Shown one piece after another: positions 32,580-35,592 of a DNA stretch of 64,000 nucleotides. Source of the stretch: Geoalkalibacter subterraneus (GTDB taxonomy: Bacteria > Desulfobacterota > Desulfuromonadia > Desulfuromonadales > Geoalkalibacteraceae). Within the stretch, counting starts at the first letter, position 1; each line of letters begins with the position of its first letter. The notes below the pieces were generated by a model. It was given only the letters and a program-made list of their open reading frames with translations, did not search any database and was not told where the DNA came from. The stretch lies in assembly GCF_000827125.1 (NCBI RefSeq), contig NZ_CP010311.1:3307001-3371000 (forward strand). The letters are read 5' to 3'. Position numbers and translations under genes: made by a program.

Positions 32580-32652
32580 ATTGGGATATCTCATGCACCC
32601 GTCGCAGTGCCGTGAGCTGTCAACCCTATTGCCGTTAGAAGAGGTGGATTTC

Positions 32653-32985
32653 ATGGAAAAATGCCCTGTCTGCAAACAACCCCAGAAAGGTAAGTACTGG
32701 TGCAGCCATTGCAAGACGGTTTTCGTTTGCCCCAACCCCAACTGCGACACCCGGATCTCCAGCCGCGGGCTCGAGGCCTGTCCGCGCTGCGGCCTTTTAT
32801 TCGCAGACTATATTGAAAAACGCAAAATGTACCGGATCTGCCCCAAGTGCAAAAAACGCCAGGGCCTGTCTGAAATTCAATGCAAATTCTGCAAATACTT
32901 TTTCAACTGCCCGACCTGCGGCCACCGTGTACCGTCAACCAGCATGCTGACCTGCCCCCGCTGCGCCACCAGCCTGAGGCGCTAG
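32653..32985 (+). CDS. Four-zinc-ribbon protein, unknown function
   Basis: A 110-residue basic protein with 16 cysteines in eight CxxC-type knuckles (one is C-x4-C): residues 4/7, 17/20, 26/31, 43/46, 63/66, 77/80, 86/89 and 101/104. They pair into four consecutive zinc ribbons. No other domain is seen, so it may bind nucleic acid or protein, but no function is known. ATG 32653 has AGAGGTGG upstream. Its TAG stop lies in the CTAG at the left edge of a mobile element, which therefore touches but does not break the gene as it stands. Confidence 0.72.
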   Translation: MEKCPVCKQPQKGKYWCSHCKTVFVCPNPNCDTRISSRGLEACPRCGLLFADYIEKRKMYRICPKCKKRQGLSEIQCKFCKYFFNCPTCGHRVPSTSMLTCPRCATSLRR

Positions 32986-34730: not shown

Positions 34731-34889
34731 TTAAGAGTCCTTCTCGCCCTTGCTTTCCTGCCCATTCTTCCGCACGGGAAGATCGCAGCTGTCCGACATT
34801 CAGGTAGGAACACCGAGGCGCGGCAGAATCCAGCGGTTGAGCACGAACCAAATAGCGACGACTCCCAGCAGAATCCATATTTCATTCAT
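34731..34889 (-). CDS. Candidate small membrane selenoprotein (TGA at codon 30 read as Sec)
   Basis: Seen: ATG with AAGGAG six to seven bases upstream, one membrane segment (residues 4-20) and a conserved-looking end LPRLGVPT, then TGA (34802-34800). The frame continues for 22 hydrophilic codons, starting M-S-D-S-C, to TAA at 34731. The RNA after the TGA can form CUGC/GCAG and UCUUCC/GGAAGA stems with loop CGUGC (34788-34758), 11 bases after the UGA. Known: bacterial SECIS elements are hairpins just downstream of UGA with a G early in the loop. Inferred: a 52-residue selenoprotein with U30 and C35. If TGA is a plain stop, it is a 29-residue peptide and the gap to cls grows from 14 to 83 bases. 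Confidence 0.6.
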
Positions 34890-35032
34890 AAAAATCTCCT
34901 TTTGTTTCGCTTCACTTTATATCTATGTTTGAATGTTTGTCAAGCGCTTGACGATTGCCCTGGGCACGCTATAGTCCTGTGGCAGGACCACAAATCTAAG
35001 GGGGAGGCCTTTGGATCTTGAGAGAATGGTTT

Positions 35033-35106: not shown

Positions 35107-35592
35107 ATGAGTAAGCCGATGCAACGCAGGGATTTCATGGTACGCAGCGCATTGACCGCCGGAGGCGTGCTGCTGGCAGCCAATCAGGTGCTGGCGCAGA
35201 AAGAGAAGGACTTCCAGGGATATTACGATGTCGACAAGGAGCTGTTTGCCAACATCAATCGGGTCGCAAATCCCGAGGAAAAGACGACCCTGGAAAAAAA
35301 ACATGCACCCGTCATCGAGGCGCCGGACAAAGTCAAATCCGGCGAACCTTTCGAGGTGACAGTCACCGTGGGTGAAATCGTGCATCCCATGGGAGCGACG
35401 CATTATATCCAGAGGGTACAGCTCTATGTGGGCAACGAGCCGGCGGGACGAGTCGATTTTTCACATCAGTTCAATGAGCCGCGTGCCCGCTTCACCCTCA
35501 AAACCGACAAGCCGGTCACGCTTGTGGTGCGTGAGTACTGCAACCTGCACGGCCTGTGGGAGAGCCGCAAGCAGATCGCCCTCGCCGACTGA
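35107..35592 (+). CDS. Superoxide reductase (neelaredoxin type) with Tat signal
   Basis: Reduces superoxide to hydrogen peroxide at a mononuclear iron. The 161-residue protein lacks the rubredoxin-like desulforedoxin domain, so it is the one-iron type. Iron ligands fit the family: KKHAPVI near residue 63, HPMGATH near 95-101 and CNLHGLW near 144-150. The N-terminus is a Tat signal (MQRRDFMVRSALTAGG, then a hydrophobic stretch to AQ), so it is predicted to act folded in the periplasm. Superoxide reductases are more often cytoplasmic, so the export is notable. TatB and TatC are encoded at 17.4-18.5 kb. Its product, peroxide, is the substrate of rubrerythrin. Confidence 0.88.
   Translation: MSKPMQRRDFMVRSALTAGGVLLAANQVLAQKEKDFQGYYDVDKELFANINRVANPEEKTTLEKKHAPVIEAPDKVKSGEPFEVTVTVGEIVHPMGATHYIQRVQLYVGNEPAGRVDFSHQFNEPRARFTLKTDKPVTLVVREYCNLHGLWESRKQIALAD

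Follow-up and report, generated by a model that had tools for sequence, protein, structure and literature searches.

Does the TGA at codon 30 of a short open reading frame in Geoalkalibacter subterraneus end a 29-residue peptide, or does it encode selenocysteine (Sec) in a longer protein? The frame lies in the window, the 64,000-nucleotide stretch of DNA that was analysed here. A sequence-only reading of the window had proposed a small membrane selenoprotein with a SECIS-like hairpin, and its account of the locus was exact on coordinates: an open reading frame with a ribosome site, a TGA at codon 30, 22 further codons up to a TAA (34733-34731), and a gene end 14 bases from the convergent cls stop (34716). 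The cysteine that it placed five residues past the TGA is present as Cys35. From the comparisons described below, this 52-residue membrane protein, which starts with the ATG at 34889, is almost certainly a selenoprotein. The fuller explanation, in which a SECIS-directed Sec30 would serve redox chemistry at the membrane surface, is very probably the best one for the locus as a whole. The features are listed in Table 1.

Table 1. Features of the proposed selenoprotein locus, in window coordinates.
Feature	Position	Strand	Remarks
Predicted selenoprotein gene (52 codons + TAA)	34731..34889	minus	product, read from 34889 to 34731: MNEIWILLGVVAIWFVLNRWILPRLGVPT-U-MSDSCDLPVRKNGQESKGEKDS
Ribosome-binding site AGGAG	34896..34900	minus	6-nt spacer to ATG
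Sigma-70-like promoter TTGACA-18-TAAAGT	34914..34943	minus	10/12 matches; consensus match only
Predicted membrane anchor: one hydrophobic helix (residues 2-24)	34818..34886	minus	AlphaFold2 and sequence
UGA, codon 30, proposed selenocysteine	34800..34802	minus	UGA/Cys comparison with SelB
Cys35, partner in the UxxxxC motif	34785..34787	minus	invariant in alignments A2 and A5
Bacterial SECIS element	34758..34788	minus	stems CUGC/GCAG and UCUUCC/GGAAGA, loop CGUGC
SECIS upper 6-bp stem UCUUCC/GGAAGA	34782-34777 with 34771-34766	minus	
SECIS loop CGUGC	34776-34772	minus	23 nt after UGA

A Shine-Dalgarno-like site precedes 92 of the 108 family homologues that have an ATG start. Around the gene itself, three promoter-like sites were found in the region, compared to 0.2 expected. 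Promoter-like sites lie back to back (34914-34975) between the gene and that of a superoxide reductase (35107-35592), an arrangement that suggests co-regulation of the two.

A search of 277 genomes from the class Desulfuromonadia with the translated protein, in which U was written as C, found homologues in 226; among the matches listed, each carries one TGA. In the phylum, 192 of 395 genomes matched at E <= 0.1, where the weakest tail is unreliable; among the matches listed, down to E ~1e-7, all carry TGA. A pattern search of genome contigs returned 204 matches, 202 of which encode relatives, and the best 80 of these 202 include members from Planctomycetota, Acidobacteriota, Spirochaetota, Armatimonadota and Verrucomicrobiota. 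In total, one unnamed protein is found in hundreds of bacteria from at least six phyla, and a common selenoprotein family appears to have gone unnoticed. Some complete genomes that bear SelB are without the gene (e.g., G112).

In the 140 family loci that we read, the UxxxxC motif is present in all but one, L084, in which U is replaced by Cys (TGC) to give CxxxxC. The UGA occupies the same codon in all 139 others, and neither TAA nor TAG was seen at this position in the loci read. The sequence-only reading had called for a homologue search with U or C allowed at codon 30 and had regarded varied stop codons as evidence against its proposal; the search yielded a constant UGA, together with Cys homologues. 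The consensus G-[VI]-x-T-U-[ML]-S-x-S-C holds in nearly all of the 140 loci, and L22, P23, G26, T29, U/C30 and C35 are invariant in two alignments. An acidobacterial locus (L267, genome G1017) has the UGA with the second Cys missing (GVPTUMTPPGG), so that UxxxxC is not absolute. Another locus, L120, has no stop for about 180 codons after the Sec domain and runs into a regulator-like gene, due to either a fusion or a sequencing error.

In comparisons of close relatives, pN/pS was 0.24 in the part upstream of the UGA and 0.34 for codons +1 to +6; the residues just past the UGA are under purifying selection. Over codons +7 to +13, which form the stem, pN/pS was 0.70 and pS was down to 0.35 from 0.50-0.66, a low pS being expected where the RNA is constrained. 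An unconserved downstream sequence was another outcome that the sequence-only reading had considered damaging. What we found, with the Cys at +5, the selected residues and the retained hairpin, is a conserved in-frame UGA with coding conservation past it, as in selenoproteins.

The stems and loop of the hairpin had been described correctly, and its distance and loop G had been judged SECIS-like. The two stacked stems around CGUGC constitute the minimum free energy (MFE) fold at this locus, at -12.6 kcal/mol, and both the energy and the loop position fall within the published criteria for bacterial SECIS elements (stem of 4-16 bp, loop of 3-9 nt, 16-37 nt from the UGA, G in the first two loop positions, MFE at most -7.5; PMC13188914). 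Taken by itself, the window hairpin was no better than shuffled sequences (z -0.43). Since the single-sequence fold was not significant, comparative tests were used, and it is these that carry the evidential weight. A permissive bacterial SECIS test was passed by 99 of 113 and 60 of 64 UGA forms, and by 8 of 20 Cys forms. We also counted hairpins with 6 or more stem base pairs and a loop 17-27 nt past the UGA (18-27 nt in the first gene set) against 200 synonymous shuffles, ignoring phylogeny. Such a hairpin was present in 78 of 114 distinct genes, compared to 12.5 expected (shuffle maximum 21), while the region before the UGA in these genes showed no excess (31 vs. 36 expected). In 104 of this set, one of the first two loop bases is G. 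In a second set, mainly from Planctomycetota and Acidobacteriota, the hairpin was present in 53 of 64 UGA forms vs. 10.3 expected (maximum 19), and the Cys forms showed no excess (3 of 20 vs. 2.7 expected). In alignment A4, both sides vary at each of the seven pairs, and pairing holds in 95.5% of cells, compared to 25-45% when the alignment is slid; in alignment A3, 98.4% are paired and three pairs have changed on both sides.

In the source genome, selA (611 bits), selB (404 bits) and selD are consecutive (C1:2752781-2757165), and a tRNA-Sec lies at C1:2745074 (76 bits); SelD has one in-frame UGA of its own. The complete machinery expected of a selenoprotein host, SelA, SelB, tRNA-Sec and SelD, is present; the sequence-only reading had proposed to look for it, and a genome without selB and selC would have spoken against it. 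Elsewhere, Sec users were called by SelB. RF01852 alone does not separate them and was set aside, as its cut-off is approached or exceeded by other long tRNAs. Among 18 genomes traced through their loci, a full SelB was found in the 17 with the UGA form and was absent from the one with Cys. In planctomycetes, a homologue was found in 65 of 199 genomes. Of these carriers, 45 have a SelB score that exceeds the cut-off, and the best copy has UGA in all 45. The 20 carriers without SelB have Cys in 16 cases and decayed genes in two (G704 and G736), and intact UGA forms occur in G756, with SelB undetected and a tRNA-Sec match of 64.7 bits, and in G792, where SelB was not found. The resulting UGA/Cys counts, 45/0 with SelB vs. 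3/16 without, give a Fisher p of 2e-12 with phylogeny ignored, a figure that overstates the number of events because the genomes are not independent. Cys homologues are thus found at the Sec position where Sec decoding is absent. The Cys forms are widely different in sequence (L162, L180-L183, L187-L195, L253), which points to several Sec/Cys exchanges, and L084 still has a SECIS-like hairpin, suggesting a recent Sec-to-Cys change.

Both G704 copies (L164, L204) look decayed, one of them with TGG at the Sec codon, and the G736 copy (L269) is a truncated remnant in which the second Cys is gone. In four cases (L196, L197, L198 and L201), a second, Cys-type paralogue is present in a SelB-bearing planctomycete genome that also has a Sec form. 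The UGA form was also found, with no SelB detected, in fragmented Desulfobacterota genomes such as G058, G073, G106, G132 and G151. Many of the genomes are fragmented MAGs, and SelB is possibly missing from those with UGA forms due to incomplete assembly.

We propose that SelB and tRNA-Sec would decode the UGA as selenocysteine under the direction of the downstream hairpin loop. This reading draws on the conservation of the UGA and the frame that follows it, the covariation of the hairpin, the presence of the machinery, and the use of Cys where SelB is absent. If the product were an ordinary membrane peptide of 29 residues ending at the UGA, with the remainder untranslated, this would agree with UGA being a normal stop in table 11 and with the unexceptional fold of the single sequence; however, the constancy of the codon in the loci read, its replacement by Cys and the conserved downstream residues and frame make such a peptide highly improbable. 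There is even less chance that a near-cognate tRNA, such as that for Trp, reads the UGA. Programmed UGA readthrough does exist in bacteria, and the TGG in the decayed, SelB-less copy would fit it, but the functional substitute in 16 SelB-less planctomycete genomes is Cys, and the hairpin is of the bacterial SECIS type and absent from the Cys forms. The hairpin might instead be a by-product of a conserved LPVRK peptide, with no selected RNA element: LPVRK encodes the stem in the window clade, and two of six pairs never vary. This, too, is very unlikely, since the hairpin is lost on synonymous shuffling and clades with EIEDRS, AVSPH or LPRDG make the stem from other bases at a similar place.

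AlphaFold2 predicted a helix over residues 2-24 of the 52-residue protein, with a pLDDT of about 90 over residues 1-20, and a disordered tail. This helix would anchor the protein in the membrane. The mean charge shifts from -0.6 ahead of the helix to +1.0 over the ten residues preceding Sec, a difference that, by the positive-inside trend, suggests that the tail with Sec30 and Cys35 is probably cytoplasmic; the selenol would then probably lie at the cytoplasmic face of a single-pass membrane microprotein. In the flexible juxtamembrane tail, Sec30 and Cys35 would be well placed to form a selenenylsulfide or take up sulfane sulfur. No thioredoxin fold is predicted, only one helix and a disordered tail, and the family profile had no match in the PDB. 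The eukaryotic selenoproteins K and S likewise have a short N-terminus, one membrane helix and, facing the cytosol, a Sec close to the C-terminus. The resemblance is one of layout, with no sequence relation claimed, and the SECIS position and decoding system differ.

Neither Pfam nor NCBIfam release 20 had a credible model match for any of 25 members, and plasmid records gave no match. Weak membrane-helix resemblance to ATP synthase subunit B' and Arabinose_trans fell far below the Pfam/NCBIfam cut-offs. The prokaryotic selenoprotein catalogue of May 2026 contains 119 families, and the motif and domain of a UxxxxC single-helix family are absent from its Table 1 (PMC13188914). No description was found in the main texts of the open-access literature, outside of which a prior mention is possible, and the accessible portions of earlier selenoprotein surveys do not mention the family. 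Its members were likely overlooked because they have about 50 codons and a UGA past the middle, and such genes often escape annotation and searches that rely on Cys homologues; deep-Sep, by its own account, may miss selenoproteins without Cys homologues (PMC12013277). The decoding mechanism is textbook, while the protein family is new. It shares the recoding signals, Sec/Cys exchange, nearby redox Cys and Sec machinery of catalogued bacterial selenoproteins (PMC13188914), but differs from them in being a 52-residue protein with one membrane helix, a UxxxxC motif and no thioredoxin-like fold. The Tso-operon selenoproteins TsoA (motif LULAxC) and TsoB (UxxxxU) also have short Sec/Cys motifs, and the Sec spacing in TsoB equals that in the new family (PMC13188914); the TsoA and TsoB NCBIfam models had no match among the 25 members. 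NCBIfam, Pfam and the newest catalogue thus all lack a family that roughly four in five of the genomes sampled in the class carry and that extends to five other phyla, and published selenoproteome counts for the carrier groups would be too low. It offers a small, testable target for asking why bacteria place selenium at the membrane surface, with the planctomycete Sec and Cys forms as a natural Sec-to-Cys control set.

The neighbours of the gene vary by clade. In the window clade, it is divergent from a desulfoferrodoxin-type superoxide reductase gene in four loci, including the window; of 121 loci, 21 have cls nearby, 14 have rubrerythrin and 19 have a zinc-ribbon protein. The last of these, a Cys-rich, zinc-ribbon-like protein of about 110 residues, is encoded at 32581-32985 (plus strand) in the window, and a search with the homologue from L104 found no Pfam match. 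In another group of Desulfuromonadia, the gene directly follows that of a CpxA-like histidine kinase in 14 loci, with a gap of 53-89 nt; 13 of these have a response regulator, and 11 of the 13 also a CpxP/Spy-like gene. Among other Desulfobacterota, thioredoxin, a TlpA/AhpC-type protein and ArsR-family regulators were each seen as neighbours in isolated cases. Four related planctomycete Cys-form loci have genes for sulfide:quinone oxidoreductase (SQOR), a metallo-beta-lactamase-rhodanese protein and TauE within a few tens of bases, and the Sec-form planctomycete locus L233 has the same set within about 1 kb. The SQOR most resembles its mitochondrial counterpart (6oi5, E 7e-128), and the best NCBIfam model for it is type III SQR, below that model's cut-off. 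Only close relatives were counted as SQOR, as the corresponding neighbour cluster (c15) mixes true SQOR with other flavoproteins (20-23% identity). The metallo-beta-lactamase-rhodanese protein resembles 3tp9 and 3r2u and, more weakly, the BpPRF persulfide dioxygenase; its gene is also near the Sec-form loci L232 and L242 and the Cys-form L084. Several planctomycete members, in both Sec and Cys forms, thus sit inside operons of SQR, CstB/Blh-type persulfide dioxygenase-rhodanese and TauE, whereas most Desulfobacterota members are located elsewhere. To our knowledge, no described component of sulfide-oxidation operons resembles the protein described here.

The proximity of SQOR, persulfide dioxygenase-rhodanese, TauE, thioredoxin, Cpx and superoxide reductase genes suggests thiol or sulfane-sulfur redox chemistry, and a thiol/selenol redox role is likely. 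Sec30 and Cys35, separated by four residues, most likely form a reversible selenenylsulfide, or act as a sulfane sulfur acceptor, at the membrane surface, and the protein may act beside quinone-linked sulfide oxidation or enzymes of thiol and oxidative stress. The operons in planctomycetes speak for sulfide or persulfide handling, and the neighbours in other clades point to thiol or oxidative stress; since neighbourhoods differ by clade, the case for a sulfur role comes mainly from planctomycetes, and a role specifically in sulfane sulfur is doubtful. An equally tentative alternative is a selenoprotein that acts in envelope stress or regulation, as partner of a Cpx-type kinase, or as a metal-binding peptide. 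It would account for the position after the CpxA-like kinase gene in 14 of the 121 loci and for the ArsR-family regulators that adjoin the gene elsewhere, but the Cpx link is confined to one group of Desulfuromonadia loci, and the neighbours in other clades are redox or sulfur genes. More speculative still, and rather unlikely, is a general scheme in which phylum-crossing membrane selenopeptides, belonging to the basic selenoproteome of Desulfuromonadia, would relay sulfane sulfur or electrons between SQOR-type enzymes and persulfide dioxygenase or thioredoxin. In genome G788 (L203, L242), the Sec protein and an SQOR, 69% identical to that of L240, are encoded in one open frame, a possible natural fusion.
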